Below, one piece after another: positions 2,342 to 27,946 of a stretch of DNA of 28,105 bases (position 1 is the stretch's first letter; the number at the start of each line of letters is the position of its first letter). The stretch spans positions 1 through 28,105 of the IMG/VR virus record IMGVR_UViG_3300002460_000141. One strand, 5' to 3'. The position numbers and the translations under genes are program-made. The stretch is from a virus. The notes beneath the pieces are model-generated. The model made no database searches and was not told the DNA's origin. It saw only the letters and a program-made list of their open reading frames with translations.

Positions 2342-4081
2342 ATGCAGCCTCTGCGCTACTACCAACGCGACCGGGCCGATGAAGCCTGTGAGTTACTGAA
2401 AGAACATCATTCCTGTCTGATCGTCATGGCCACCGGGCTCGGCAAGACGAGGGTTGCCACCGAACTGATCGAGCGATTCAAACCCGGGCGAACATTGTTT
2501 ATCGTTGGGCAGCGTGATTTGGTTTTTCAAGGCGCAAAACATATCGAGCGAGTAACGGGGATTGATTGCGACATCGAGATGGCCGAGCGCGTGGCCGCGA
2601 CATCATTCTGGAACCGGCATGGGGTGGTGGTTTCGACGTTCCAGACCCTTATCAGCGGACAGACTGAGCGGAAACGTTTGCATCGCCTGAAGCCTGCCGA
2701 TTTCAGTTTGGTGATCGTGGACGAGGCCCACGAATCAATCGCGATCTCTCGCCAGGAAACAATCCGGTATTTTCTCGATGGCAACCCGGAATTGAAACTG
2801 GTTGGGTTGACGGCCACTCCATGCCGGACTGATGAACAGGCCCTCGGTAAGATTTTCGAGTCCGGCACGAAACCGTATGAATTGGCCGACGCCATCAAGG
2901 ATGGCTGGCTGGTGAATGTGGAACAGCGGATTGTCTCGGTTCACGGCCTTGATTTCAGCCACATCATCACCACCGCCGGGGATTTGAATGGCGCGCAGTT
3001 GGCGCAGGTGATGGAACAGGAATCGGTTGTTATGGAAATTGTCCAGCCGACCTTGGAAGCAATGTACGGTCTGCCGGTCCAGGCTCTCTCCAAACTGCCG
3101 ATTGAACAATGGCGCGAGGCTTTGGTGGCGAGCGGGAACAAACCAATACGGACAATTGTGTTCACCGTCCGGGTTCATCACGCCGAAATGCTGTGTGACA
3201 TTTTCAACCGGGTGCTCGATGGCGCGGCGGGCTGGGTCAGCGGTAACACGGCGAAAGAACAACGCCGCAAGATCATGGAATCTTTTGCAGATGGCCGGCT
3301 CTCACTACTCTGCAACGTCAATGTGTGTGGTCAAGGTTATGACAACCCGGCAGTTGGTTTGATTGTCATGGCTAGACCCACGAAATCGCTTTTGCGGTAT
3401 CAACAAATGCTCGGTCGCGGCACACGTACACTAGAGGGTATTCTCGATGCTCATGCGGAGGGTGTGAATGGAAGTAAGGAACGACTGGCTGCGATAGGCG
3501 CCAGCGAGAAGATCAGGTTGATTGTTTTGGATCCGGTCGGAAATTCTGGCCGGCACGTCATCGTCAATTCGGTGGACGTGCTGGGTGGAAACTATGATGA
3601 AGAAGTTATCGCCCGCGCCAAGAAACGCGCTGAGACAGAAGGGAAAGCAGTTGCGACAGAGTTGCTGGAAGAAGAAGCGGCGGCGCTACAAAAGGAATTG
3701 GAAGAACGCCGGGTGCGGGAAGCCGCCCGGAAAGCGAAGCTGGTCGGGAAAGTCATTTATACCGTCAAGGTCAGCAATCCGTTCGATGTGCTGGGATTGC
3801 AACCCGTCCGGGATCGTGGCTGGGATGTGGGCAAGCAAATTAGTCCGGGCATGGTCAAAGTGCTCAACCAGATGAAAGTGGATTACTCGAACCTGCCCTA
3901 TGGCCAGGCGTTGCAGCTTGTCCGGGAACAGATTCGCCGGTGGAAGAATCATCTGGCAACAACGAAACAAGTCCAATGTCTCCGCAAATACTACAGCGAT
4001 TTAGATTGGAAGAACCTGCCTTTCAAAGAAGCCAGCCGCCTGATAGATGGGTTGGCAAAGAACAATTGGACGAAACCATGA
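2342..4081 (+). CDS. SF2 DEAD/DEAH-box helicase
   Basis: A 579-residue helicase of the type III restriction/UvrB-like superfamily 2 group. Visible motifs are an R-x-x-Q near the N-terminus (LRYYQRD), Walker A ATGLGKT at about 30-36, DEAH at 127-130 within VIVDEAHES, TAT at 157-159 within LVGLTATP, and motif VI QMLGRGTR at about 355-362. A charged helical segment lies around 420-460, and the C-terminal 100 residues probably bind a partner or DNA. ATP-driven unwinding or translocation during replication or recombination is the expected role. No nuclease or methylase motif is fused. The ATG follows the previous TAA directly and the TGA overlaps the ATG of a 19-codon ORF, so translation is likely coupled through the operon. 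Confidence 0.9.
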   Translation: MQPLRYYQRDRADEACELLKEHHSCLIVMATGLGKTRVATELIERFKPGRTLFIVGQRDLVFQGAKHIERVTGIDCDIEMAERVAATSFWNRHGVVVSTFQTLISGQTERKRLHRLKPADFSLVIVDEAHESIAISRQETIRYFLDGNPELKLVGLTATPCRTDEQALGKIFESGTKPYELADAIKDGWLVNVEQRIVSVHGLDFSHIITTAGDLNGAQLAQVMEQESVVMEIVQPTLEAMYGLPVQALSKLPIEQWREALVASGNKPIRTIVFTVRVHHAEMLCDIFNRVLDGAAGWVSGNTAKEQRRKIMESFADGRLSLLCNVNVCGQGYDNPAVGLIVMARPTKSLLRYQQMLGRGTRTLEGILDAHAEGVNGSKERLAAIGASEKIRLIVLDPVGNSGRHVIVNSVDVLGGNYDEEVIARAKKRAETEGKAVATELLEEEAAALQKELEERRVREAARKAKLVGKVIYTVKVSNPFDVLGLQPVRDRGWDVGKQISPGMVKVLNQMKVDYSNLPYGQALQLVREQIRRWKNHLATTKQVQCLRKYYSDLDWKNLPFKEASRLIDGLAKNNWTKP

Positions 4082-6042: not shown

Positions 6043-7002
6043 ATGACCATTGAACAGATACGCGACCAGAATGATCTGGTGGAGTTGGTGTCCCGGTACG
6101 TGCCCCTCAAGAAGCGCGGCGCGGAATTCTGGGCGTGTTGCCCGCTGCATGCTGAGAAAACGCCAAGCTTTCATGTGTCACCGGCCAAGCAACTGTGGAA
6201 GTGCTTCGGGTGTGGCGAAGGCGGCGATGTGTTTAGTTTCGTCATGCAGATGGATGGCTGCACGTTCAGGGAAGCCGTCCAAAAACTGGCCAATGGGATG
6301 GGAACAGCCCCCACAAGCCACCGCCTTCGCAGCAGGATGCCATCCTTTGCGTCCGAACCGCGATTGACGGAAAAGGACTGCCTGAGCTTCCTGGAAGCCT
6401 GTAGGCGGGCTACCACGCAAGAAATGGTATCCCGGCACGCCGCACAATTGGGGGTGTCAGTCCTGTCACTGAACCTCCTTGGGGCGGCCTGGTCGGAAAA
6501 TCACCGGGCTTGGGCGTGGCCGATGTTCGATGGCCGCGCGAGGATCTGCGGAATCAGGCTGCGCACCGAAGATGGTTCTCGCAAGTTCGCCGTCCGCGGT
6601 TCGCGACAGGGAGTGTTCTGCCCCGACGACGATTCGCAATCGGCGCTTGGGACAATCTGCGAGGGGGTGACGGATACACTGGCGGCGGTGACCATGGGAC
6701 TGACCGCGATTGGCCGGCCCACTTGCAACTCAGCAGCGGAGATCGTGGTGGCAGTCGTTCGCCAACGTGGTTGGCGGCGGGCCATCATCATAGCCGACAA
6801 CGATGAGAATGGGGCCGGGCTCGCCGGGGCCGAAAAGCTGCAAGCCGAACTGCTGATCCCCTCGATGATTTTCCTGCCGGCGACCAAGGACCTGCGGTCC
6901 ATGCTGTTAGCAGTTGGCGACCCGTCAATCGCTCGCCAACTGATTCAAAATGCCGTGGCTGATATGGTCTGGACGCCGGGAGTTGCGGCAGAATACGCCT
7001 AA
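6043..7002 (+). CDS. DnaG-type primase (CHC2 zinc finger plus TOPRIM)
   Basis: A 319-residue primase that makes RNA primers for replication. The N-terminal CHC2 zinc finger is clear: C33-P-L-H36 then C54-F-G-C57, within CPLHAEKTPSFHV and WKCFGCGEGGDVFSFVM. A TOPRIM domain follows at about 200-270, with the acidic EGVTDTLAA (E207) and IIIADNDENGAG (D252 and D254). It is much shorter than bacterial DnaG (roughly 600 residues): the linker between zinc finger and TOPRIM is compact and no helicase-binding domain is seen. No fused helicase is present, unlike T7 gp4. The SF2 helicase upstream does not belong to the DnaB family, so the replicative helicase may lie elsewhere. Confidence 0.85.
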   Translation: MTIEQIRDQNDLVELVSRYVPLKKRGAEFWACCPLHAEKTPSFHVSPAKQLWKCFGCGEGGDVFSFVMQMDGCTFREAVQKLANGMGTAPTSHRLRSRMPSFASEPRLTEKDCLSFLEACRRATTQEMVSRHAAQLGVSVLSLNLLGAAWSENHRAWAWPMFDGRARICGIRLRTEDGSRKFAVRGSRQGVFCPDDDSQSALGTICEGVTDTLAAVTMGLTAIGRPTCNSAAEIVVAVVRQRGWRRAIIIADNDENGAGLAGAEKLQAELLIPSMIFLPATKDLRSMLLAVGDPSIARQLIQNAVADMVWTPGVAAEYA

Positions 7003-7577: not shown

Positions 7578-7824
7578 AACTTCCAAGAAGCGGTTGGCTA
7601 TCGTGAGTTTAATAGCCGCTTACTCTCACTACGTCGAACTGCTTGAGGAAGAAAACGGTGCAACAACTTCGCTCGCATGGATACACGGCTGGCGACCGAA
7701 GCGAGGGAACGTCGCACGAGGAAAACGCTATCGCGCCAAAATCTCACGACTCAAGGCGGCTTTCGACAAGATCACCTATGGCAAGTGCAGTGACCCACAC
7801 CCGCGTCGCACGGAGAACCAATGA
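7570..7824 (+). CDS. small conserved phage protein, helical
   Basis: An 84-residue protein. The start is the ATG at 7570 with GGAAAGGA about five bases upstream; the same frame is open further back to an ATG at 7375. Core features are IAAYSHYVELLEEENGATTS, then IHGWRPKRGNVARGKRYR and KISRLKAAFD. This matches a common short phage family (L...Y...L..L.EE...A...A..HGWR..R...G...R..I..L...L). Function is unknown; the predicted fold is a helical hairpin. Its TGA overlaps the next ATG (7821-7824). Confidence 0.65.
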   Translation: MVKTSKKRLAIVSLIAAYSHYVELLEEENGATTSLAWIHGWRPKRGNVARGKRYRAKISRLKAAFDKITYGKCSDPHPRRTENQ

Positions 7825-8492
7825 CAAATAAATCAAGGACCGTAGCGCGAACGCGGGAAGCGCGTTCGCTGAATCGGGTTATTAGCTGGCATCGTGGTAT
7901 AGTCACCACAGAATCGGGTGACGAACTGCCGGCGTGGGTGCTCAAGCATGGCAAACGAGTCATACTCTGCGCGACTTCAATGACTCCAATCATTGAAGCC
8001 GTATCGAAGCCTGACCGCAAATTCATCGCGGAAGCCATCGCCGCCAGCTTCCAGCTAACCAAAAAAGCTGAGGCGCGATGTGGTGCCACAGACTTCAACA
8101 CCAGCCCGAGCGTCGCCGTTCTCGCGCTTGACGTTCATGCGGTGGTTAGACCTCTGGTGTACCTCGCGTGTCCATACTCGCATCCTGTCCGCGCTGTGCG
8201 AGTGAGACGCTTCGAGGCTGTGAACCGCGCCGCCGCCAAGCTGATGCGCCAAGGACTGCACATCTTCTCGCCAATCAGCCACACGCACCCCATCGCGGAG
8301 ACGGGAGAGCTGCCGCTCGGGTGGGAATACTGGCAGGCATATGGCCGGGCGTACTTGACGCACTGCCACAAGCTCATCATCCTGCGACTGGACGGGTGGG
8401 ACCGAAGTAAGGGCGTCGAGGCTGAACTACGAATCGCAAACGAACTTGGTCTCACTGTGGAGTTCATGGATGAGATTGAACGTATCGGCTGA
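7821..8492 (+). CDS. DUF1937-type (deoxyribosyltransferase-like) protein with novel N-terminal extension
   Basis: A 223-residue protein. Residues about 112-221 match the DUF1937/nucleoside 2-deoxyribosyltransferase-like fold: VYLACPYSHP, then FEAVNRAAAKLMRQGLHIFS, PISHTHPIAETGELPLGWEY, CHKLIILRLDGWDRSKGV and ELGLTVEFMD. Members of this fold bind nucleosides or nucleotides; the exact reaction is not known for DUF1937. The first 110 residues (WHRGIVTTESGDELPAWVLK and on) are not part of that domain and are unrecognised, though they are open from the coupled ATG at 7821. It may be a true two-domain fusion, since no better start lies nearer the domain. Confidence 0.7.
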   Translation: MTNKSRTVARTREARSLNRVISWHRGIVTTESGDELPAWVLKHGKRVILCATSMTPIIEAVSKPDRKFIAEAIAASFQLTKKAEARCGATDFNTSPSVAVLALDVHAVVRPLVYLACPYSHPVRAVRVRRFEAVNRAAAKLMRQGLHIFSPISHTHPIAETGELPLGWEYWQAYGRAYLTHCHKLIILRLDGWDRSKGVEAELRIANELGLTVEFMDEIERIG

Positions 8493-9030: not shown

Positions 9031-9216
9031 CTAAGTTGCGGATGATGGCTTGAGTTTACCTGTTCGCTCACGCACCGCCAGTCGCTGAAGCAACTGGCGT
9101 GATTCCTCGACTGTGCTGGTGGCATCGGGAGTGTCGTGCGCGTGTTCCAGAGCCAGCAGTTCCAACTGCCGCAACATCTCGATCTGCGCCTGCAAGGCGG
9201 TGTGGAAAGGATTCAC
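9031..9216 (-). CDS. small helical protein at end of late operon
   Basis: A 61-residue protein read from a GTG at 9216 that overlaps the previous TGA (GTGA). It is almost entirely helical and charged (QAQIEMLRQLELLALEHAHD then ESRQLLQRLAVRERTGKLK), with no membrane segment. It is the last gene of the late operon; its stop lies five bases from the stop of the convergent gene. No motif is recognised. Confidence 0.55.
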   Translation of the reverse strand: MNPFHTALQAQIEMLRQLELLALEHAHDTPDATSTVEESRQLLQRLAVRERTGKLKPSSAT

Positions 9217-9488
9217 CGGATTATCTCAACTAAGGCCGCCATGATGCCACCGGCTCCGCCGCCACTAACGGCGACGATGGCGATCAACTTCCATTTGGCG
9301 ATTTCCTGCGCCTGTTGCTGGCTGGCGGTAGCCGCCACCAAATGAAGCTTGATTGTTTCATCAGCTATGGCGCGAGCTTGCTCGCGGATCTTCGGCATGA
9401 TTCCATTGTCCAAAGCGCGGATCAGGGCCGCATCCGCCGCTTCATTGGCCACCAATCGGATGAGTCGTTCGAGTTGTTCATCGGTCAT
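9213..9488 (-). CDS. small membrane protein in lysis-like cassette
   Basis: A 91-residue protein. The ATG at 9488 was chosen because it overlaps the hydrolase stop (ATGA, 9485-9488); a GTG further upstream would overlap more. The N-terminal two-thirds is amphipathic helix (DEQLERLIRLVANEAADAAL). One membrane segment, KLIAIVAVSGGGAGGIMAAL, lies near the C-terminus at about 66-88, with Gly-rich packing. It may be a holin-like or antiholin-like protein, or an accessory of the hydrolase; this is inferred from position. Confidence 0.6.
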   Translation of the reverse strand: MTDEQLERLIRLVANEAADAALIRALDNGIMPKIREQARAIADETIKLHLVAATASQQQAQEIAKWKLIAIVAVSGGGAGGIMAALVEIIR

Positions 9489-10087
9489 TGGGTCACCGTT
9501 CCCACTGTCCAGTCCCACCACCGCTCGCTAGTAAACCAAGAATGCTCACGGCCAGGCTTGTAATTCAGCCTGATCCGGTGTTGCAACTCAAGCGGTAAGT
9601 TCTGCGAGCGCAAGCCCAATGTCCCATAACCGACCCAGCGCCGCCAGGACCGGCGTTGGACAGCTAACAGTGTTTGATCATTGGGACCGCCGTGGACAAT
9701 GACTTCGTCAATCAGCCCGGCGCGCAATAATTCCGCATAACCGTTCTGTTCCCAGTCAGCGGAACACGCCGGCGCGAATAAGCGGACCGTCTTGAACGGC
9801 ACGTGTGCCCTCGCCATGGCCCCAGCCAATAGCACGGCCCCATAACTGTGAGCGATCCCATGTAGTTCTCCCCACCCCAAATTCAATAAAATGTGATTGG
9901 CCAACACGTGAACGTTCCAACGTCTCCACAATAGGGAACTTACCGGTCCACCTTTCCAGGGCAATGAAGTGGCACTGTCAGGCCCCGGTCGCGCTTCAAT
10001 TTCACGCGCCAACTGATCATGCCAACCAGGATTGGCCGTCCATTGATTGATGCCATGCACAATGAGAAAATGACGTTCATTGATCAT
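9485..10087 (-). CDS. alpha/beta hydrolase (esterase/lipase-like), possible lysis esterase
   Basis: A 200-residue protein. HFLIVHGINQW near the N-terminus gives the strand and oxyanion-loop HG. The nucleophile elbow is GIAHSYGAVLL with candidate Ser81 (A-H-S-Y-G, first Gly of GxSxG replaced by Ala). Candidate acid is D137 in HGGPNDQ and candidate His is H182 in GREHSWF, so order and spacing fit a Ser-Asp-His triad. No signal peptide or membrane segment is seen. It lies between a lipoprotein-plus-micropeptide pair and a membrane protein, all with 4-base overlaps. Lysis or envelope ester hydrolysis is therefore plausible, as for LysB esterases of mycobacteriophages, but no sequence link to LysB is claimed. 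Intracellular roles remain possible. Confidence 0.7.
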   Translation of the reverse strand: MINERHFLIVHGINQWTANPGWHDQLAREIEARPGPDSATSLPWKGGPVSSLLWRRWNVHVLANHILLNLGWGELHGIAHSYGAVLLAGAMARAHVPFKTVRLFAPACSADWEQNGYAELLRAGLIDEVIVHGGPNDQTLLAVQRRSWRRWVGYGTLGLRSQNLPLELQHRIRLNYKPGREHSWFTSERWWDWTVGTVTQ

Positions 10088-10185
10088 AAAATTGGATAGC
10101 CCGACCGTGCTGAGTAGGCACTGATGGTCAGATTACTGGGAGGCAACTGCCACCGGATTTCTCCCGCATCGGGCAAAAAGTTCAT
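10084..10185 (-). CDS. 33-residue coupled small protein
   Basis: Encodes MNFLPDAGEIRWQLPPSNLT plus 13 more residues ending SGYPIL. Its ATG overlaps the lipoprotein TGA (10182-10185) and its TGA overlaps the hydrolase ATG (10084-10087), so it exactly bridges the two with ATGA overlaps at both ends. That geometry, repeated along the operon, is the main support. The product is polar with no membrane segment or motif, and is not recognised. Confidence 0.5.
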   Translation of the reverse strand: MNFLPDAGEIRWQLPPSNLTISAYSARSGYPIL

Positions 10186-10418
10186 TGGCCTGTCACCGCT
10201 GAATGCGCCGCGACACCGATCAACTTGCCGGCCGCCGCCCCAAACGCTTTGTAGGTTTCTTCGGTGCCCATCGCCATCGCCGTGATTTTGTCGCCGGCGA
10301 CTGTCACATTCGCGTTGCCAGTGGCCCGCACGACGACCCGCGAACCATCGGGCCGATGCACGTCAACCGTGACACAACCACTGAGTAATCCGAACGCGAG
10401 CAGGATCATAGTCTTCAT
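10182..10418 (-). CDS. small lipoprotein (possible outer-membrane spanin-like)
   Basis: A 78-residue protein. The start at 10418 overlaps the previous stop and has GGAG about eight bases upstream. It has a short lipoprotein signal peptide MKTMILLAFGLLSGC with lipobox LSGC and the acylated Cys at 15. The mature part is small and beta/helix mixed (VTVDVHRPDGSRVVVRATGN). With a two-membrane-segment protein just upstream and a hydrolase downstream it could be an o-spanin or other lysis lipoprotein; lack of Pro-rich Rz1 character leaves this open. Export as a lipoprotein is well supported, the role is not. Confidence 0.65.
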   Translation of the reverse strand: MKTMILLAFGLLSGCVTVDVHRPDGSRVVVRATGNANVTVAGDKITAMAMGTEETYKAFGAAAGKLIGVAAHSAVTGQ

Positions 10419-10648
10419 GGTTTGATCTCCGGTTTTTTTCCGTTCTGCCACTGATGGTAACTGTTGTTGAAGAAGGCCACCACCGTCGCCAAGCCGGAAC
10501 AGATACCGGCCAGAACGGAAGCCAGAATGCGCACGCGATCAGGCATGTAGTGGTACTCGGCCGCTTTGTTGAACTCGGCGGAGATGGGCGCAAAAAAAGA
10601 TAGTAAGAACAATAGCGCGCACATCGTGCTGACCATCGAACCACTCAT
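10415..10648 (-). CDS. two-membrane-segment protein, holin candidate
   Basis: A 77-residue protein from the ATG at 10648 (a GTG three codons upstream is an alternative). Two hydrophobic segments are visible: STMCALLFLLSFFAPISA near the N-terminus and VRILASVLAGICSGLATVVA at about 43-63. A charged, polar tail follows (NSYHQWQNGKKPEIKP). Size, two segments and basic tail fit a class II-type holin, and it opens the cassette lipoprotein, micropeptide, hydrolase, membrane protein. The first segment might instead be a signal peptide. Its stop overlaps the lipoprotein ATG (10415-10418). Confidence 0.55.
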   Translation of the reverse strand: MSGSMVSTMCALLFLLSFFAPISAEFNKAAEYHYMPDRVRILASVLAGICSGLATVVAFFNNSYHQWQNGKKPEIKP

Positions 10649-10676
10649 TCTGGCCACCCGCTAAAAGCATGTTGGT

Positions 10677-13133
10677 TCATCGGGGCGAAATTGATAAGGG
10701 GCGCATGGTGTTTGGCGTTTTAGGAATAAATGGAATCTCCACTTGCCGGATGATCCGGGCTTCCACCAACAAGCGTTGCAATTGTTGTCGCAATTCAATT
10801 TCGCGGCGGTTTCGCGCTAGTTCTAATCGAATCGGTGTCCGTTTCAACCCGAAGATACCGGCGGAGATTTGTTGTTTGACTGTGCGCCCGCGGAACTCAG
10901 GTTCCAATTCCGACCGCAATTCGCCTTCAATGGATTTCAGAAGTTTTTCCGGGAATTCAAACGCCAAGGGCGGAGCATAGAATTTGGTCAGATACTTCAT
11001 AATCGCGCCCCCGATCTGTTGCGGTTCGGTCGCCGTTGCGGGAATGATTGGTTTGCCAAAGAAATCCTGGTTGCGCGCCAGTTCGGCAATGACGTTCAGA
11101 GCGGGGAACTTCGTCAAGGCCGTCTGCGCCACTGTGGCGCCACGTTTTTCCGCCGTGAAAAATTCGCCCGTGAACACGTCGCCAAACGGCAACATGTACG
11201 TCATATCGAAATAAGCGGCTCGGCCAAACCGATCTTTTTGCGGGAGACGAATGAAAAAACCATTGCGGATATAGTCCGGCTCGTTTTCTCTTTCGGCCTT
11301 CAATTCAGCCACCGGTGACAAGGATTCAATAGCGGATTTGATCTTGCCGATGTTGCTGATGGCGGTTGGTTTCGTCAACAAAGTCCGGCCCACTTGACCC
11401 GTGGCTTTATAACTGAACGTGATGAACGGGAATCCAAAAACGCTTTCGCGCACTTTGCGAATGAAAGGCGTGACCTGTGTGTAATTGAAAGTGGCACGTT
11501 CACTTATTTTCCAAGCGTCATCAGGACTGAGACCTTTGCCACGCTGGAAGATGTACTGCGAGAGCTTCGCCCATTCTTCTTCCTTCTGGTAAATGTTGCT
11601 CACTTTATCAATTGCTTTTCGGAAAGCGCCACCAACTCGGTTCATCTCCTGGCCATTCAACAAGGATCGCAATTCGGCAGCCGCAAAAGTATCCAGTCCC
11701 AATCCCACTGCTCGGGCCTCCTGATACCACCGGCCTTTGGTCGCCAATTGATGCGCGGCAGTCGCATAAACATCCAACCGCGCCGGGTTCAAACCCTCGA
11801 AATGGTTCAAAATGAAATTGGACAGCATGTTGCGAACGTGCGTAGCCGGATTGGCGATCACCTTGCCGAACTTGAAACCAGCGACCAGTTTGCGGCCCAA
11901 TGTCGGTTCCGGTTTACGGACAAGTTCATTGATGTAAAGCGCGATTGGTTCCGGTACATACTTTCCCGCCAAGGCACCCAAGGCGCGATTATCGACTTTG
12001 CCGACCAGCGTCAAGCCGGGCAACCCCACATCCGAACCGAATTTTTCGGCCGTGAATTTGAACAGTTTGGCCATTTCATTGGCCCGCACCAATTGCACCA
12101 TCGCTTTGGCGGTGGGATAACCGGCCTCCAAAATCTCACCCAAAGCTTCCCGGACATCGGGCGCTAAATCTTTCCGGTGCTTGAACCGATCAAGATTGAT
12201 GCGCAATGGTCTCTTGCCCGCCATCAATCCGAAAGTTTGCTTGCCGATTTCATGGTGGCGGTAGAGATTGGCGATATATTCACCAACGTTGCGTTCGTAC
12301 ACTTCCGGTTTTAACAGGCCATTGGCAACGGATTCTCGTCCGAGTCGATCAAGTTCTTTGAAGGCTGGCAACGCGGCATCCAAATCCGCCGGACTTAAAA
12401 TCCGCCGTAATTCATCGGCGGACCGGCGGACTAATTGACCGCTGGCGTTGCGCGTCAGAAAAGCGCGTTGAGTTTCCGGGCTTAAAGCCAGCAAAGGTTT
12501 GGCGAGGTCCATGACGTTTTGCTGTCCAATCGCGACGGCCCGCAGTGAACGATCAAACGTTTCTCGAAACGGTTGAGGTAACCCATAACCGTAGATCAAC
12601 TTTTGACCAAAGAAATCTCCGACACGTTTGGCGCTGCGGGCCACTCGGGAAGTTTCAGCAGCGGCGGTGACCCCAGCGCCAATGGCCGCGCGCACTTTCC
12701 GAACGCCACCCAGCAATGATTTACCCGTGCCGCCGACTGGCAGATAAGTCAGTGGATCGACCGCAATATCGAGGGCCACGCCGGCTATTACGCCGGGCAA
12801 ACCATATTCTCCGAGCGCATCCTGATCGCTGAAACTCTGCCGAGTCCGCACCCCTTCGGCAAACCCCTTCCCTTTCAGAACGCCCGTCACGCCATATTGG
12901 AGCGCATTGAGCGAATCGAAAATATCCTGAACTGGTCCGCCGCTGAAAATTCGGCGTGGATCCTCGCCGGCCGTCCGGGCCAAAATGTCGGCAGCTTGTT
13001 CCGCGAAACCTGTTTGCCGGGCAGTCTCAACCAGCCCGGCTGAAGTTTTCAAATCGGGCGAGGAGGGACTTGAAAACGTCAAGCCGGCGCGGGACCTGGT
13101 TCGATCCGTGGGAGCGGAAATGATGAAAGCCAT
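10677..13133 (-). CDS. large internal virion / polyvalent-type phage protein
   Basis: An 818-residue protein. The N-terminal third has GEYGLPGVIAGVALDIAVDP and TYLPVGGTGKSLLGG, a hydrophobic Gly-rich segment followed by long charged helices. The middle has FKFGKVIANPATHVRNMLSN, resembling the NP.T..RN...N segments of C-terminal domains in large phage polyvalent and internal virion proteins. Later parts include WKISERATFNYTQVTPFIRK and FGFPFITFSYKATGQ. No lytic transglycosylase, protease or nuclease motif was recognised. Its place at the end of the structural genes, just before the lysis cassette, fits an ejected internal (pilot) protein that helps DNA cross the envelope. Role is inferred. Confidence 0.65.
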   Translation of the reverse strand: MAFIISAPTDRTRSRAGLTFSSPSSPDLKTSAGLVETARQTGFAEQAADILARTAGEDPRRIFSGGPVQDIFDSLNALQYGVTGVLKGKGFAEGVRTRQSFSDQDALGEYGLPGVIAGVALDIAVDPLTYLPVGGTGKSLLGGVRKVRAAIGAGVTAAAETSRVARSAKRVGDFFGQKLIYGYGLPQPFRETFDRSLRAVAIGQQNVMDLAKPLLALSPETQRAFLTRNASGQLVRRSADELRRILSPADLDAALPAFKELDRLGRESVANGLLKPEVYERNVGEYIANLYRHHEIGKQTFGLMAGKRPLRINLDRFKHRKDLAPDVREALGEILEAGYPTAKAMVQLVRANEMAKLFKFTAEKFGSDVGLPGLTLVGKVDNRALGALAGKYVPEPIALYINELVRKPEPTLGRKLVAGFKFGKVIANPATHVRNMLSNFILNHFEGLNPARLDVYATAAHQLATKGRWYQEARAVGLGLDTFAAAELRSLLNGQEMNRVGGAFRKAIDKVSNIYQKEEEWAKLSQYIFQRGKGLSPDDAWKISERATFNYTQVTPFIRKVRESVFGFPFITFSYKATGQVGRTLLTKPTAISNIGKIKSAIESLSPVAELKAERENEPDYIRNGFFIRLPQKDRFGRAAYFDMTYMLPFGDVFTGEFFTAEKRGATVAQTALTKFPALNVIAELARNQDFFGKPIIPATATEPQQIGGAIMKYLTKFYAPPLAFEFPEKLLKSIEGELRSELEPEFRGRTVKQQISAGIFGLKRTPIRLELARNRREIELRQQLQRLLVEARIIRQVEIPFIPKTPNTMRPLSISPR

Positions 13134-14354: not shown

Positions 14355-15221
14355 TTACCAGCCGCCACCAACGTAACCGGAGGCCGGTGGTAGTTGCGAT
14401 CCTTGAGGTTGAGGGCCGCCCCAGAAACTTCCCAATGCTCCACTGGCGGCGGCGGTGCCCAGACCGGCAATCTGGCCACCGAGTTGACCGAATGCTTGTT
14501 GCCGTTGGCTCTCAAGCGCGTTCTGAGCGGACACTCGACTCTGATTGAGATTGATCAGATCATTGTAACTCGGTGGTGTCAAAGCATTGATCGCCGTGCC
14601 ACCAGGCGCACTCATAAACCGAAAACTCTGCTGATAGTTGAGAGCATTCTCGATGTTCCGCTGTTGTTGTTGCAGTTCGAGATCGGTCAGGAATTGGGCT
14701 TCCTGAGCACTGCCAAGCGGCGAATCGAACAAACCACGCAACGCCTGGCCCTGGCCAATCTGATTTCGGAAAAACGCCAATTGCGCTGGCGAAAGTCCCT
14801 GGCCGACATTTCGGCCAATCTCCTGGCCAAGAGCTTCGCGGGCAGTGAAAAATTCTGGCGCTTGTCGTTGGAAAGATTCCAAAACGTTTTGCTCGAACTG
14901 CGGGAAAAAACCTGCCTGTAACCGGGCCAGACCACCCAACAAACCTTCTTTTTTGACCAATTGATTGAATCGGCTACGTTCACTCGGCGTGAATCGGGCA
15001 TCTCTGCGTGCCCGGCCGCGAAGCAGACTGAACTGTTCTTCCCGTTGGCGGAAACCCGCCAACTCAGCTATCTCAGCTTCGGACAATGGCCGGCCCATGA
15101 CGTTGAAAGGCGCCATTGACAGATTTCTCAAACCGGGCACGCTGGGTTCACCAAATGCACCGGCGGCACTGGCCGCCGACAAACCGATGCCGGCCGCGCC
15201 AAGGGCAAGACCTAAGGGCAT
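14355..15221 (-). CDS. Gln-rich helical virion-module protein
   Basis: A 288-residue protein. The start is the ATG at 15221, overlapping the acetyltransferase stop by one base (TAATG); the frame is open further upstream but reads antisense to that gene. The N-terminus is hydrophobic (MPLGLALGAAGIGLSAASAA), then GLRNLSMAPFNVMGRPLSEA and long Arg/Gln-rich helices (LQQQQRNIENALNYQQSF), ending with a Gly/Pro-rich tail SGYVGGGW. It resembles phage ejection or internal proteins, which pair an apolar N-terminus with long helices. The family is not recognised. Confidence 0.6.
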   Translation of the reverse strand: MPLGLALGAAGIGLSAASAAGAFGEPSVPGLRNLSMAPFNVMGRPLSEAEIAELAGFRQREEQFSLLRGRARRDARFTPSERSRFNQLVKKEGLLGGLARLQAGFFPQFEQNVLESFQRQAPEFFTAREALGQEIGRNVGQGLSPAQLAFFRNQIGQGQALRGLFDSPLGSAQEAQFLTDLELQQQQRNIENALNYQQSFRFMSAPGGTAINALTPPSYNDLINLNQSRVSAQNALESQRQQAFGQLGGQIAGLGTAAASGALGSFWGGPQPQGSQLPPASGYVGGGW

Positions 15222-15748
15222 TAGTTTTCTCCTTCGTGTTTCACGCAATAAACATAAGTGGTGTTGTGTGGGACCCCATTTTTGGTATGGGTGTGTCGCA
15301 ATTGGCCAAACAGGGTGAACCCGCACCGTTTCGCAAATAGCAGCGTCTGGGGCGTGTTGTCCGGACAATACGACACCAACATCAAACACGGCGCGTTGCC
15401 AAACATCCAATCCCGCGCCAGACAACCGGCTTGAATTGCCGATTGTCCCCGGCAAGCTTTACTCAACACGGTGTGGACTTCATAGATCGCCGGGGCGCGT
15501 TTTAGCAAACCGAAATAACCTACCGCCTTACCGTCCCGGCGAACCAGTAGAAAAAAATTGTCCGGTTGTCGGATGGTCGTGGTCAAGTCAAACTGCTCCG
15601 CCGGTGGTGAAGCGTCATCCGAAATCGCCGCGTAGATCGCCGGTTCGCGCGCCAACCGATTGCACCAGTCACCACTGAACGTGCGTTCGATCGTGATCCT
15701 TGACGCTACCGGCTCAATTCCGCTTCGAGTTTGTTGCGTACATTCCAT
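15221..15748 (-). CDS. GNAT-like acyltransferase in the structural module
   Basis: A 175-residue protein with the order of GNAT strands and helices: NFFLLVRRDGKAVGYFGLLK (strand 2 to 4 region), IYEVHTVLSKACRGQSAIQA (strand 4 and the acyl-CoA-binding turn R-G-Q-S), then CLMLVSYCPDNTPQTLLFAK and RCGFTLFGQLRH (C-terminal N-x2-(A/S)..(L/Y)..KxGF pattern). Acetyl-CoA-dependent modification of a virion or host protein is the family expectation. Its start overlaps the previous gene by 43 bases, unusually long here; no closer start codon was found. GNAT-like genes are known within podovirus structural clusters, with unclear role. Confidence 0.7.
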   Translation of the reverse strand: MECTQQTRSGIEPVASRITIERTFSGDWCNRLAREPAIYAAISDDASPPAEQFDLTTTIRQPDNFFLLVRRDGKAVGYFGLLKRAPAIYEVHTVLSKACRGQSAIQAGCLARDWMFGNAPCLMLVSYCPDNTPQTLLFAKRCGFTLFGQLRHTHTKNGVPHNTTYVYCVKHEGEN

Positions 15749-16149
15749 AGTTGTCTCAATGAATTGAGTTTGCCTTCAACGGCCCCGGGTCCGGCCAAGA
15801 TGTCAGCCTCTTTCTGGTCCAGCGCGTCGTAGATCGCCGCCCGTTTGGCGCGTAGATCGACCTTGTTCGTCACGGTGATAGCCAAGCGTGCCGCGATCAT
15901 CCCTTTCAAGCCATTGAATGCCGCCGCTTGACTCGTCAAAAAAGCATCATAATCGGCATCCGCCTGGTCCAGTTCAGTCTCGGTCGGCAGTGGCAAACTG
16001 GGATGTCTCCAAGCGATGATTTTGCCACCGGCAGTATCCGCCACGAAACCATATTTCCATTCCAAGACAACCGGCAATGGATGTTTACGGGCGGCTGCAA
16101 CTGTTAAGGTCAACCCCAGGAAACTCAGCAGTAACAGTAACGCTCTCAT
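15706..16149 (-). CDS. secreted or membrane-anchored small protein in virion module
   Basis: A 147-residue protein starting at the ATG that overlaps the fibre gene stop (16146-16149). It has a clear N-terminal signal: MRALLLLLSFLGLTLTVAAA, then RKHPLPVV, suggesting cleavage after the Ala run. The mature part is helical (AAFNGLKGMIAARLAITVTN, then KLNSLRQLWNVRNKLEAE). No catalytic motif is seen. An exported protein coded between fibre and acetyltransferase genes is unusual; it could be a periplasmic factor, a fibre partner or an entry-exclusion protein. Confidence 0.6.
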   Translation of the reverse strand: MRALLLLLSFLGLTLTVAAARKHPLPVVLEWKYGFVADTAGGKIIAWRHPSLPLPTETELDQADADYDAFLTSQAAAFNGLKGMIAARLAITVTNKVDLRAKRAAIYDALDQKEADILAGPGAVEGKLNSLRQLWNVRNKLEAELSR

Positions 16150-17003
16150 TGGATGACCTCCTCGACGCGGAGCCACGACTTCAAAACCCCACCCAGTTTG
16201 CGCGCGCCAGCATCACCATTGATGGTCACGGTACCGCTCCCCTCTGGCCCAACGTGAAGCTTAAACGTTGTGCTGTTGGTGGCATCGGAGGTGACTTCGC
16301 ACACCAACGGGAACGGATACCGGTGCGCTTCTTCGCCGGCCCAACCAGCTTGGAAGGCGTTGGTCGTGGAATCACGAAATAAAGCCACAATGATGTTATT
16401 GGCCACACTGTTCTTGGCGCAGGCCATCGCCGTGACGCGCAACAAACTGTTCGTGAATTGCGGACTGATCGTAACTGAGAGAATTTCCAGGCCATTGGTC
16501 AATTGCGGGATTAAATCACCCCCGGCAAAATCGGCGGTGGTCGTCATGACTTCACCAGTTGAGACGCTGATGGATTGAACCAGGGTGTCAAACGTCGTCG
16601 CCAAATGCCAGGATTCCACCGCATTGGTTGCCAGATTGATCGACGTAATCGTATTGGTCGCAATATCATCGCCGGTGATCGTGTGATCCAAGATGTTGGC
16701 CGAAGTCACCGCGCCCGTGGCGATGTCCGTCGTTAAAATCGTGTAATCCAAAATCTTGGTTGAAGTGATGCCGCTATCCTTGACGCGATACTTGTTACTA
16801 TTGATTTCCAGAGTCGAGTTATCCGTATCATCGGCGCTGGTTCGGGTGATCGTGGCATTGTTGACCAGATTCTCCAATTTCACGTCTGTTACCTGTTCGT
16901 TCGGAGTGAAGTTATACCCGGTCGTGAACGTGGCCGCGTGCAGCCAAATTGCCATGAGCCAGACGACGACGAAACCACCCGCAATCAGCAACTCACGTTT
17001 CAT
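16146..17003 (-). CDS. tail fibre-like protein with N-terminal signal/anchor
   Basis: A 285-residue protein. The N-terminus is MKRELLIAGGFVVVWLMAIW then LHAATFTTG, a signal peptide or anchor. After that come short repeats: GITSTKILDYTILTTDIATG, AVTSANILDHTITGDDIATN and TITSINLATNAV, with the I-x-D-x-T-I / D-I-A-x pattern found in trimeric phage fibre shafts. The C-terminal 110 residues look like a jelly-roll or knob (NNIIVALFRDSTTNAFQAGW, then SWLRVEEV). Host adsorption is the expected role. The exported N-terminus is odd for a cytoplasmically assembled fibre. ATGA overlaps join it to both neighbours. Confidence 0.7.
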   Translation of the reverse strand: MKRELLIAGGFVVVWLMAIWLHAATFTTGYNFTPNEQVTDVKLENLVNNATITRTSADDTDNSTLEINSNKYRVKDSGITSTKILDYTILTTDIATGAVTSANILDHTITGDDIATNTITSINLATNAVESWHLATTFDTLVQSISVSTGEVMTTTADFAGGDLIPQLTNGLEILSVTISPQFTNSLLRVTAMACAKNSVANNIIVALFRDSTTNAFQAGWAGEEAHRYPFPLVCEVTSDATNSTTFKLHVGPEGSGTVTINGDAGARKLGGVLKSWLRVEEVIQ

Positions 17004-18709
17004 GATCCTCCGTTGGCTGCCGCCACGACATCCTCGCCGAGAATGCCGTTGGCGTTCTCAATTGTGCCCGCCGTAAAATCATCATCACTATCGGCTTCCT
17101 GGACCCCAGCGCCAGTCACGGCAACTTGTTCAGTATTGCCCAGCCCGATGAACCGGCTTCTTTCAATGAACGCTTGGAACCAGAACCCGATAATTTCCGG
17201 ATTGTCATTCGAGGTGATTTTCACCCGGAAATCTTTGCTCCGATGAATCGCGACGTTATTCTGATCATACCAGCATTCAATCGTGCTTTCGGTGATTTGT
17301 GCGCCGCCGAGAGAAGCCGGCAACGTGAAGGGCAGGAACAAACCACCTGCGCTCGGTTGAAAAATTCCCAACACGGCTTCCTCACCGTTTTCGTAGAGCA
17401 GACTGATCCGGAGATCGCCCTGGTGAGTTTCCCCAGTTAGCACGATCAGTTTGAAAGGCGTTTTGTCGTGATACCAGGCGGGTTTCTCATCCGGCAGGTT
17501 GAACGTGATCTTCTTGGAAATCTCGACGTACTGGGAATCCGTGCCCGTGGCGGTATCGAACGCGCGCTGGATGATTCCGCCCGTGTTCTTGCCGATATAC
17601 AGATGTGGTTTCGCCCCACCGAATCCTATCAGCGCCGCAGTAAACGCCGGATGACTCGTGATTTTGGTCCAGCCTTGAAATCCGCTCGTTTTCGGCGGTC
17701 GCATCGTATAGGCCAAAATCTTGTTGGGATACGTCGCCGCGACAGCCGGCACGAACCAGAGAAGTTCATCGTCGAACACAATCGCGTGCACGGATTGCGG
17801 GGTTTGGTTCCATTGAATGTCGCCTGAGACTTCATCATCAATATTGTAACTGACCGGCAAGCTCGGCCCCGTAATTTCGCCATCTTCGGTCGTATGCAAT
17901 GAGCGGAGGCCTTCGCGCGTCATGTAAAACACATCACTGGAATCGTTAACCCCCACCCGCACAATCGCCCCCGCACCGACAATCGGCAGATCATGGAACA
18001 AGGCCACGATGTTGTAGCTCGCTACGTCGATCACATGAATCGAACCGACGCCCTGAACGCTGCCCTTGAACACCAGAAGCTTATCCTCACGCCAGGGCAA
18101 CAACCGCAAGATTGAATCCCCGGCGCCAAACCGGATCCGCAAACTCGGGATCGTGATCGACTCGGCGGTGTTCAAGTCCGAGAAATGCACTTGGTCGCCC
18201 ACCGCGTACCACATCCGATTTTTGAACCAGAGCAGATCGTTGGCGGCCCCGAGCGCCGCCCCGCCGGAATCGTTGATGGTGGGTTGGGTCCACGTTGTCC
18301 CGTCCCACTTGAACACCGTGTTGGTCTGATCGGTGCCGTAGATCACACTGGCCGCGCCATCATACGCCTGTTGCATGAACACGCGATTGGTGGTGGATAC
18401 TGTCGCGCCCGTTTCGCCGGTGGGAGTAGTTGACCCATCCCATTCGTAAAGTTTCGCGTTGCAGATCGCCACCAAATAGGGCGTTCCACTCCGGATATAC
18501 GGATGCAGCCCGTTGACTGGTGTGGTTGCGGCGGCATCCAGCGTCACCTTGGCGGTCGGCTCGTAGCGTTTGCGGCGCACACCGGGCACGCTGATGTCAA
18601 CGTTGGTCAACGTGGTCGCCTCATTGTCGGCCAGCAACCGCGCCCCGAGCCGCTGATTCAAGCCCCCCGAGTAATCCACATTGAGATGTTCCGCCAAAGG
18701 ATAGCCCAT
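17000..18709 (-). CDS. large beta-rich tail/virion protein
   Basis: A 569-residue protein. Near the N-terminus SGGLNQRLGARLLADNEATT and NVDISVPGVRRKRYEPTAKV resemble the opening of phage tail or stabilisation proteins, where each subunit begins with a list of sites and a repeated-strand domain. The body is rich in short strands and Trp motifs (AKLYEWDGSTT, VFKWDGTTW), compatible with a beta-propeller. It follows the adaptor by two bases and precedes the fibre. This order suggests a tail tube, nozzle or hub component of a short tail. Family not confirmed. Confidence 0.6.
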   Translation of the reverse strand: MGYPLAEHLNVDYSGGLNQRLGARLLADNEATTLTNVDISVPGVRRKRYEPTAKVTLDAAATTPVNGLHPYIRSGTPYLVAICNAKLYEWDGSTTPTGETGATVSTTNRVFMQQAYDGAASVIYGTDQTNTVFKWDGTTWTQPTINDSGGAALGAANDLLWFKNRMWYAVGDQVHFSDLNTAESITIPSLRIRFGAGDSILRLLPWREDKLLVFKGSVQGVGSIHVIDVASYNIVALFHDLPIVGAGAIVRVGVNDSSDVFYMTREGLRSLHTTEDGEITGPSLPVSYNIDDEVSGDIQWNQTPQSVHAIVFDDELLWFVPAVAATYPNKILAYTMRPPKTSGFQGWTKITSHPAFTAALIGFGGAKPHLYIGKNTGGIIQRAFDTATGTDSQYVEISKKITFNLPDEKPAWYHDKTPFKLIVLTGETHQGDLRISLLYENGEEAVLGIFQPSAGGLFLPFTLPASLGGAQITESTIECWYDQNNVAIHRSKDFRVKITSNDNPEIIGFWFQAFIERSRFIGLGNTEQVAVTGAGVQEADSDDDFTAGTIENANGILGEDVVAAANGGS

Positions 18710-25408: not shown

Positions 25409-25777
25409 TCAGGCTATTCCGTTGTGTCGGTTCAACAATACTGCGTCGATCTGTTCGCCCTTGATTTTGACGTGCGGTCGGATTAATCGCAGAAAATGGA
25501 TTGCCTTCGCGTTTGTCACTTGGAATTTCATACCCTCTTTGAGCGATCGGTTACTTCGATGTGTTTTCGCTTTACCATTGCTACCAACCCATCCATATCC
25601 AAGTGCACCACGAACATAGTCAAGACATCGTCTGTCTGTGTTCGAAATGATTACAAATGCTGTGAGATACTTAACACCATTCTTAGAGGACTTTCGAGAA
25701 ACGATACGAGTATGACCTTCTCCATCGAATAGTCCAGCGATGTAGCCCAGACTCACAGTGTCCATTGATTCTTTCAT
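25409..25777 (-). CDS. LAGLIDADG homing endonuclease (single motif)
   Basis: A 122-residue protein starting at the ATG at 25777 (or an in-frame ATG at 25765). One LAGLIDADG-type helix is present, SLGYIAGLFDGEGHTRIV, with the catalytic acidic residue in FDGEG. The rest fits the fold: YLTAFVIISNTDRRCLDYVR and KFQVTNAKAIHFLRLIRPHV. Single-motif enzymes act as homodimers and cut long sites. The open frame extends upstream through the tRNA-like gene, but that stretch is explained by the RNA. The DNA is AT-richer than its neighbours. It looks like a mobile element inserted between terminase and portal genes; its cut site is unknown. Confidence 0.8.
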   Translation of the reverse strand: MKESMDTVSLGYIAGLFDGEGHTRIVSRKSSKNGVKYLTAFVIISNTDRRCLDYVRGALGYGWVGSNGKAKTHRSNRSLKEGMKFQVTNAKAIHFLRLIRPHVKIKGEQIDAVLLNRHNGIA

Positions 25778-25782
25778 AGTTT

Positions 25783-25854
25783 TAGCAGGGGTGGGAATTG
25801 AACCCACTATCTCCAGTTTATGAGGCTGGCGAGTCACCGTTTCTCCTCCCTGCA
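25783..25854 (-). tRNA. tRNA-Met(CAU)-like gene
   Basis: Read on the minus strand, a cloverleaf can be drawn. The acceptor stem has six good pairs (GCAGGG with CCCTGC) and the outermost pair is T-T. The D arm has GAG/CTC and the GG of the D loop. The anticodon arm is CCAGC-CTCATAA-ACTGG with anticodon CAT and one A-C mismatch next to the loop. The T arm is perfect: GTGGG-TTCAATT-CCCAC. CCA is not encoded. Position 8, usually T, is A. Elongator Met, or Ile after lysidine modification, are both possible. The mismatches suggest a degenerate or unusual phage tRNA. It occupies the gap between terminase stop and endonuclease start. Confidence 0.65.
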
Positions 25855-25865
25855 ATTGACAATCT

Positions 25866-27425
25866 TCAAACATCAATCAATTCTCCCGAAACTTCATCAA
25901 CAATCAGGTCCGCACCCGGCTCATCATAGCACAAAGCCAGCAAGTCCTCGCGGCCGGTCTTTTCGGCAATGGCTTGCAAACTCGACCGGTCGCGTTGGGC
26001 TTGGCTGAGTATGAAGGTTTTCGCCCGGTAATACGGATCGTGCATGACCAGGTACATGCAACCACGCGGATAATCCAGATAGCGCGTATCCAACTTCGCT
26101 TCCCCGCTTTGCAAGACCTCTTTTGTGCGGGTCAGATTTTTCAGTTGGTGAATCGTGTTGCGGCAATTGTCCGCCACAAAAAACCGCGGTGGCTGGTTTT
26201 CCGAACCTAGCAAGTCTTTCAGCACATTGATTCCGCCAAGCTCGCCGGTCACGCGGACGTCGCCGGCGTCGAACTGGAGACCGTACACGTTCAGAAGTTT
26301 ATCGCGCAACGTGGTCACGTCGAAATCCTCGACAATGCGTTGATGCGCAAATTTGGTGTCGATCAGCATGGTGCCGACATTGAACTGTTCCCGGCAAGCT
26401 TCGATGACGGCGGCATAATCCGCCAGGGTATTTCGGCCAGTGTCAATCTGGTGGTAATCCTCAGTCGGCCATTCACCGATGATATACCAATTCCCATCGA
26501 GCGCCCGGCGGCCAACGACAATCACCCACGGCCGCAACTGATGCGGATCGACCACCAATAAGGTTTCACCTTCAGCGGGCACCCTGGCCAGGCTAGTCAG
26601 ATGCCGTTCATTGAAATGGAACACGCGCCGGGCCAGATGCACTGGCACGCCGGTTTCGCGGGCGGCGCGTTCATCGGCGGGATACGCCGCAATCATTTGG
26701 GCAACATGTTCGTGTTTGAGCCGGCCGCGGATGCCGTGCGTCAGACAGTTCGCTTCGATGTCGGCGTAAAACCAGCCGGTGGTGGGTTGCTTCATCAATT
26801 CTTCGTACACCCAAACGCTGTCGAAAAGAAGCGTGGCGAAGATCGCCCGTTTGCCGCCGAATCGGAACCGGGCCGCGCTGGGCAGCCAAACATTGCGGGG
26901 GGGTTCCTCATCGGAGAACAACCCGCCGAGAGTCACTGATTCCCAGTTCTGCGCCGGTTGACCGAACGTAACCACGTCAATCAGAAACCCTTTTTTGCCC
27001 ATCACATACAACGCGGGATGCGTGAATCCCTGGTTGCGGGTGGTATACTGCTTTTTTGGCCACCATTGATGAATGGCCTGCCAGACGGCGCCGGAATAGG
27101 GTTTGATCTGTTCGGCATTCACCGCCAACCGCAGATGCCGCGGATACGGCCAATCACGGAACAGTGGATAATCGAACCACTGGTTTTGGGGACCATCCAC
27201 GATGTTCCATAACAGGTTCGCCAGCAAACAAGTCTTGCCTGACCCATTGGCGAAGGATGCGACCATATCGAAGTACCCGCCTTCGGCGAACATTTTAATA
27301 AAGCGTTCTTGGGCGCCATTGGGCACAAAGGTCGCGGCGGCGGAAACTTCGGTCACCAGCCGGCGGGCCGGTGCCAAGACTCCCACCCCGAGGGCTGGGG
27401 CTGATGACTTATGTTTCGGGTTCAC
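25866..27425 (-). CDS. terL: terminase large subunit
   Basis: A 519-residue protein from the GTG at 27425, which overlaps the previous TGA (GTGA). ATPase motifs: Walker A in ASFANGSGKTCLLANLL (GSGKT at about 61-65), Walker B LGGLFSDEEPP with the catalytic acidic pair, and the coupling segment RAIFATLLFDSVWVYEE. The nuclease domain follows with D in TLLVVDPHQLRPW (about 293), D in TMLIDTKF (about 356), and a late LVMHDPYY. It packages DNA and cuts at the end of packaging. No terminase small subunit is recognised; the partial gene or the small proteins upstream might fill that role. The assignment is strong from motif order and position next to the portal. Confidence 0.85.
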   Translation of the reverse strand: MNPKHKSSAPALGVGVLAPARRLVTEVSAAATFVPNGAQERFIKMFAEGGYFDMVASFANGSGKTCLLANLLWNIVDGPQNQWFDYPLFRDWPYPRHLRLAVNAEQIKPYSGAVWQAIHQWWPKKQYTTRNQGFTHPALYVMGKKGFLIDVVTFGQPAQNWESVTLGGLFSDEEPPRNVWLPSAARFRFGGKRAIFATLLFDSVWVYEELMKQPTTGWFYADIEANCLTHGIRGRLKHEHVAQMIAAYPADERAARETGVPVHLARRVFHFNERHLTSLARVPAEGETLLVVDPHQLRPWVIVVGRRALDGNWYIIGEWPTEDYHQIDTGRNTLADYAAVIEACREQFNVGTMLIDTKFAHQRIVEDFDVTTLRDKLLNVYGLQFDAGDVRVTGELGGINVLKDLLGSENQPPRFFVADNCRNTIHQLKNLTRTKEVLQSGEAKLDTRYLDYPRGCMYLVMHDPYYRAKTFILSQAQRDRSSLQAIAEKTGREDLLALCYDEPGADLIVDEVSGELIDV

Positions 27426-27556
27426 CAAGCTGATTCAAATTTGTCGAAGAATCTTTTTATCAGATTCGCCAACCACCAGATGGATCCGATCAGCAGCAGA
27501 GCCAAAACCAGCAACGCCAGCAACCATTCGGTCGTGGAAGATCGGGGAGTCTGCAT
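27422..27556 (-). CDS. 44-residue single-pass membrane peptide
   Basis: Starts at the ATG at 27556 and ends with a TGA overlapping the terminase GTG (27422-27425). Sequence: MQTPRSSTTEW, then the hydrophobic LLALLVLALLLIGSIWWLAN and the basic tail LIKRFFDKFESAW. One membrane segment with a basic inner end. Holin-like pinholins and small regulators share this form. Coupling to the terminase start supports it being translated. Confidence 0.55.
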   Translation of the reverse strand: MQTPRSSTTEWLLALLVLALLLIGSIWWLANLIKRFFDKFESAW

Positions 27557-27568
27557 CAGCCCCAGCCG

Positions 27569-27946
27569 TTATTTTCCGGCCCGGGCAATCGTGGCCAACA
27601 GAGCCGCGGCTTCATCGCTGGGCAAGGACCGCAGCAACTGGCCCAGCGCAGCCAGGTAGCTGGCGCCTTCTTGGGCGTCCACCTGGACCTGGCCGCCTTC
27701 AATCTGGCAGCACCGGCGGTTGATTTCGACCAGATTACAATACCATTCTTTCTTTTTGCTCATCTCAAGCTCCCTTCGCAGAAACAGGTTTTTCAGTTGA
27801 ACATCATTTAGGTCCTGACTACACAGCATGAACTTCCTACGCAACTCGCGATCTTCGAAGCAACGATCATCCCAGATCATCCAGATAACAACACAGGCTA
27901 CCAGCCCCAACACCACCAGACCCACGGTGAGCAACATAACGATCAT
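27569..27946 (-). CDS. membrane-anchored coiled-coil protein, i-spanin (Rz)-like
   Basis: A 125-residue protein. The N-terminal membrane segment is MLLTVGLVVLGLVACVVIWM (from residue 4), followed by charged helix (DRCFEDRELRRKFMLCSQDL and VQLKNLFLRRELEMSKKKEW) and a helical C-terminus (LRSLPSDEAAALLATIARAG). A single N-in anchor followed by coiled coil is the topology of Rz-type inner-membrane spanins. No nested o-spanin was seen in the other frames. The start overlaps the preceding stop (ATGA, 27943-27946). A structural membrane role is the alternative. Function is inferred from topology only. Confidence 0.5.
   Translation of the reverse strand: MIVMLLTVGLVVLGLVACVVIWMIWDDRCFEDRELRRKFMLCSQDLNDVQLKNLFLRRELEMSKKKEWYCNLVEINRRCCQIEGGQVQVDAQEGASYLAALGQLLRSLPSDEAAALLATIARAGK

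Follow-up and report, generated by a model that had tools for sequence, protein, structure and literature searches.

What is a predicted alpha/beta hydrolase doing at the very end of the late operon of an environmental phage? The question arises from IMG/VR virus record IMGVR_UViG_3300002460_000141, a linear fragment of 28,105 bases that was analysed whole (hereafter the window), in which an earlier note had described six overlapping genes at 9031–10657, built around a 200-amino-acid (aa) hydrolase, as a possible lysis or envelope-modifying module. We favour, with about even confidence, the view that the six genes, placed last in the late operon at its 3′ end, form a host-exit module, the peptidoglycan hydrolase of this phage probably being encoded off-contig. 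A role in lysis or in exit through the envelope is partly supported, by the position of the cassette and by the holin-like and lipoprotein companions of the hydrolase, rather than demonstrated.

All six open reading frames (ORFs) are present on the minus strand, running from 10657 to 9031 (Table 1), and the 4-base joins that had been read between them hold at each of the five consecutive junctions (ATGA at four and GTGA at one, every one exactly −4). Short overlaps are a general habit of this late operon, in which 2 of the 15 junctions listed ahead of the cassette likewise measure −4; five in series are unmatched elsewhere in the operon and unusual here. Late genes occupy the minus strand between terL (27428) and 9031, where they face plus-strand early genes, and the cassette forms the final part of this block, starting 19 bases past a gene for an 818-aa protein. 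The 33-aa ORF is the weakest and least certain gene of the six. Promoter and terminator scans returned matches at chance level only.

The place of the cassette can be compared across phages through the 818-aa protein, which belongs to a family found in IMG/VR phages (the window and loci L002, L008–L015 and L018–L022; 43–53% identity over the aligned family) and characterized by NPATHxRN and YQKEEEW-like motifs. Its gene looks like an exchangeable marker, part of a widely exchanged module; the other genes of these relatives are hardly alike in the stretches compared (terL of L002 is ~31% identical). No more than about 1.5 kb separates the 818-aa homologue from a lytic enzyme 3′ of it in L002 (M23, 3.8e-8), L013 (M23, 3e-9) and L008 (Amidase_3, 2.6e-10), and in L012 the homologue is followed directly by a papain-like protein that shares 35% identity over 220 residues with the C1 protein of L009. 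Fibre-like genes come first in four further loci and are followed by a papain C1 protein and an Amidase_2 (2.7e-17) in L009, by a peptidoglycan-binding (PG-binding) protein with a weak SLT match in L010, by a weak papain C1 and PG-binding match in L014 and by a protein that is papain-like by eye only, with no match in PHROGs, in L018; L011 and L021 end too soon for this stretch to be judged. Most of these lytic enzymes adjoin small proteins with one or two transmembrane (TM) segments. The gene content suggests that the stretch 3′ of the marker is often a lysis region, and in the window phage the hydrolase cassette sits there. The hydrolase itself was in none of the eight relative records tested, and the same gene order, the recurrence of which the earlier note had proposed to check, was found in no other phage.

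The hydrolase is recognizable by the order of its motifs—a hydrophobic strand ending in HG (LIVHG, His11), then AHS81YG, a further strand with GGPND137 and finally H182S—which is how an alpha/beta hydrolase is laid out. None of the other proteins matched among the 483 ORFs of 120 aa or longer from the window and the loci compared, and shuffled copies of the hydrolase matched a loose form of the pattern in 21 of 300,000 cases and a strict form in none, figures that give an order of magnitude only because the pattern was written post hoc from the hydrolase itself. Its 600 bases hold a single open frame, the remaining five frames carrying 7–11 stops each. Codon usage is neutral (0.007, versus 0.11–0.28 in most genes and −0.02 in the 403-aa gene), which may reflect a foreign origin. 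The protein is basic (isoelectric point 9.6) and soluble, with no signal peptide and no TM segment, and thus fits an enzyme released by a holin. It has no significant match in Pfam, PHROG, NCBIfam or PDB sequences, so that the comparison with LysB, cutinase and lipase families that had been suggested for it came back empty; the best Pfam match, to the general Hydrolase_4 family, is non-significant (0.093). Exact-pattern scans of IMG/VR and GTDB contigs and tblastn against phages (up to E 10) and plasmids yielded no homologue; these scans mainly reach close relatives, and distant homologues may therefore exist. The single match of a scan with a 60-residue fragment (L017) was rejected, being antisense to a small gene and without an open frame. 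A single-sequence AlphaFold2 model, made with no alignment, had a mean predicted local distance difference test (pLDDT) score of 38.9, too poor for a fold search. The alpha/beta-hydrolase fold and the catalysis of this protein are thus predictions from its motifs, which point to no particular substrate.

Among the companions, the 80-aa protein has two TM segments by hydropathy (residues ~1–30 and ~41–66) and ends in KKPEIKP; its small size, its number of TM segments (one to three are expected) and its charged C-terminus are those of a holin, and it may permeabilise the inner membrane. The 78-aa protein has a lipoprotein signal by hydropathy that ends in LSGC, which conforms to the lipobox consensus of two-component o-spanins, [LVI][ASTVI][GAS]C (PMC6139136). 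An i-spanin has a single N-terminal TM segment and a periplasmic domain, whereas the overlapping partner of the lipoprotein has two TM segments and the 91-aa protein has its TM segment (residues ~66–90) at the C-terminus; we rejected a spanin reading of the lipoprotein because it has no i-spanin partner. The topology of the 91-aa protein resembles that of some of the small single-TM proteins that adjoin lytic enzymes in the relatives. Hydropathy thus bears out what had been said of the two-TM protein, the lipobox lipoprotein and the C-terminal-TM protein. Family searches gave no significant match for the 80-aa, 78-aa or 91-aa proteins and no match for the 33-aa ORF, and tblastn of the lipoprotein against phages found nothing; its similarity to the PHROG of the Cor exclusion protein is non-significant (0.089).

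If the cassette is a host-exit module, the 80-aa protein would act as a holin and permeabilise the inner membrane, after which the soluble, basic hydrolase would gain access to the envelope and cut an ester (or amide) bond in it, for instance one that links a lipid or a polymer. The hydrolase would serve as a second lytic enzyme in a LysB-like mode, its putative envelope partners being the lipoprotein and the C-terminal-TM protein, and the peptidoglycan hydrolase would most likely have its gene in the part of the genome that is missing. Export, substrate and a role in lysis are all presumptive for the hydrolase cassette.

An M23 search of the window found nothing, and Pfam/PHROG scans of its proteins (the helicase-like one at 2342–4081 and the primase-like one at 6043–7002 excluded) revealed no recognizable peptidoglycan hydrolase, in agreement with the earlier note. 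The sole exception was a match of a 569-aa protein (17000–18709, minus strand) to PHROG 5107, labelled ‘amidase’ (E 8.6e-7); the label is probably a misannotation, given that record MW202524 lists its homologue as a phage stabilization protein (P22 gp10-like). Little can be read from the lack of an endolysin in the window, the record being a 28-kb fragment cut beside small membrane genes upstream of terL. The longest relatives reach 40–43 kb; the fragment may lack ~12 kb, probably around one third of the genome. At the right contig end (27422–28104, minus strand), a partial ORF, the gene for a 125-aa protein with an N-terminal TM segment and a 44-aa single-TM ORF all lie upstream of terL; family searches (including PHROGs) gave no significant match for the small TM proteins among them. 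Lysis genes of P22-type phages lie upstream of the terminase genes.

Several observations weigh against a host-exit module. The small TM genes upstream of terL could be a rival lysis-gene site, and a canonical endolysin is quite possibly encoded off-contig. Whereas position and companions spoke for the lysis or envelope module, the hydrolase at its centre has neither a detectable homologue nor a usable fold model. The equivalence of the slots hangs on one gene, the relatives otherwise sharing little with the window, and fibre-like genes precede in L009, L010, L014, L015, L018 and L020; in L015 and L020, the stretch read 3′ of the marker held fibres and no lytic enzyme that we recognized. MW202524, the nearest phage by capsid and packaging genes, has no comparable cassette after its ejection genes.

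The strongest rival, doubtful in our view and yet far from negligible, is that the six genes are a cargo (moron) cassette that modifies or guards the envelope of the infected cell, for example by receptor masking or superinfection exclusion, while lysis falls to a canonical gene set in the missing right-hand part, upstream of terL. Cargo is often found where a late operon ends, and the TM genes upstream of terL stand where P22-type phages have their lysis genes; the neutral codon usage of the hydrolase, the company of a lipoprotein and membrane proteins and, for what a non-significant match is worth, the likeness to Cor would also suit such a cassette. Set against this, relatives with the same upstream gene hold lysis genes in the equivalent stretch. 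It is improbable that the hydrolase serves in metabolism or counter-defence, acting for instance on a signal or small molecule and merely sharing the late operon: there is no evidence on its substrate and its best Pfam match is to a general family, as this would allow, but its gene is translationally coupled to membrane and lipoprotein genes and lies in a stretch that contains lysis genes in relatives. Least probable is that the hydrolase, which sits where relatives have a peptidoglycan hydrolase in a window with none recognizable, replaces that enzyme as the only lytic one, by non-muralytic lysis or by cutting a bond of the wall, given that the fragment probably lacks about a third of the genome and that no alpha/beta hydrolase of phage lysis is known to us to cut peptidoglycan. 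We give as little credence to the proposal that a lysis cassette here swapped its peptidoglycan hydrolase for an alpha/beta-hydrolase esterase, such that an ester-linked envelope component is attacked instead of, or before, peptidoglycan.

Well-established cases of lysis enzymes with a target other than peptidoglycan concern mainly mycolic-acid bacteria. Should the host-exit reading be true, a holin-delivered esterase in the lysis region of an unrelated group of environmental phages would suggest that other hosts too have ester-linked barriers in their envelopes, and the hydrolase would be a testable enzyme; were the cassette merely cargo, one ejection-protein gene would still mark a hot spot for the swapping of lytic enzymes.

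The core genes place the phage near the P22-type podoviruses. The stabilization-like 569-aa protein and a DUF2824/GNAT protein (15221–15748) are followed by three genes in what we take, from the P22 gene order, to be ejection-protein positions (including the gp16-like one), and the 818-aa protein is the third and last. MW202524 is the closest named record in the terL, portal and stabilization genes (25–30% identity); searches of IMG/VR with the portal and 569-aa proteins gave no closer phage relatives. A scan of GTDB contigs gave no relative of the 818-aa protein that might point to a host. A 140-aa ORF of MW202524 (L006 36753–37175, minus strand) is transglycosylase-like by eye, has no match in PHROGs and was not used as evidence. 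Elsewhere in the late block, a fibre-like protein (16146–17003, minus strand) matches the Pgp3 C-terminal domain (PF05475, E 1.7e-5, at the cut-off), and a LAGLIDADG-like homing endonuclease ORF (25409–25876, minus strand; weak match) lies between terL and the portal gene; an early gene (7821–8492, plus strand) encodes a nucleoside 2-deoxyribosyltransferase-like protein (PHROG 355, 1.1e-16). At the endolysin place of other relatives stand papain-like proteins with weak or no Peptidase_C1 matches, some with a PG-binding domain, which are possibly cysteine-peptidase lysins.

Table 1. Coordinates of the cassette genes, their neighbours and the papain-like proteins of relatives (window positions unless a locus is named).
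Feature	Coordinates	Strand	Basis or location
80-aa two-TM protein, basic C-terminal tail, GTG start; holin candidate	10415..10657	-	ORF, hydropathy
78-aa predicted lipoprotein, lipobox LSGC; possible outer-membrane partner	10182..10418	-	Sequence, hydropathy
33-aa ORF, possible coupling or leader ORF	10084..10185	-	ATGA overlap at each end
200-aa soluble putative hydrolase, Ser81-Asp137-His182	9485..10087	-	Sequence motifs, hydropathy
91-aa protein, N-terminal part helical, TM at C-terminus	9213..9488	-	ORF, hydropathy
61-aa protein, helical by composition, closing gene of late block	9031..9216	-	ORF, hydropathy
818-aa protein, P22 gp16-like (ejection protein) position	10677..13133	-	Directly upstream of cassette
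44-aa single-TM ORF and 125-aa N-terminal-TM protein	27422..27946	-	Immediately upstream of terL, cut contig end
Papain-like protein	L009 17609-18418
Papain-like protein	L010 16262-17260
Papain-like protein	L012 12328-13200
Papain-like protein	L014 11754-12821
Papain-like protein	L018 14177-15418

How the cassette stands beside known systems also bears on its novelty. The earlier note had ventured a possible new type of lysis system, which goes beyond the evidence: lysis cassettes with lipolytic enzymes have been described before, with LysB and with a GDSL-like lipase of a Pseudomonas phage (PMC6116114, PMC12173070), and the idea is not new in kind. LysB of D29 and Ms6 is a soluble serine hydrolase that attacks an ester of the envelope during lysis (PMC6116114, PMC5707550), and the window hydrolase has its Ser, Asp and His in the same sequence order. 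It differs in having AHSYG in place of G-X-S-X-G, with Ala for the first Gly, in the spacing of its residues (Ser81-Asp137-His182 in 200 aa, compared with Ser82-Asp166-His240 in D29 LysB), in matching no LysB or cutinase family by sequence, in having no adjoining endolysin in this 28-kb fragment and in belonging to a phage whose host is not known to bear mycolic acids; as it lacks the G-X-S-X-G motif and shows no homology to LysB, it is not to be called a LysB. LysB works alongside an endolysin, and in Ms6 lysis still occurs when LysB is deleted, though with a smaller burst (PMC5707550), an accessory role of the type assumed for the window hydrolase and a further argument against its being the only lytic enzyme. 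In a siphovirus (Nickievirus) of Pseudomonas syringae pv. actinidiae, a Gram-negative host, the putative lysis cassette likewise includes a GDSL-like lipase gene (PMC12173070); the window protein differs from that lipase in its HG...HSxG...D...HS layout with no extra domain. With spanins of the lambda Rz/Rz1 type (PMC6139136), the cassette shares a small lipoprotein gene that overlaps a small membrane-protein gene, although the membrane protein here has two TM segments and no periplasmic coiled-coil domain. The lysis stretches of L002, L008, L009 and L013 have M23 peptidases, amidases or papain-like enzymes, and none has the window hydrolase, but like the cassette they lie 3′ of the same marker gene and set small TM proteins beside a soluble enzyme.
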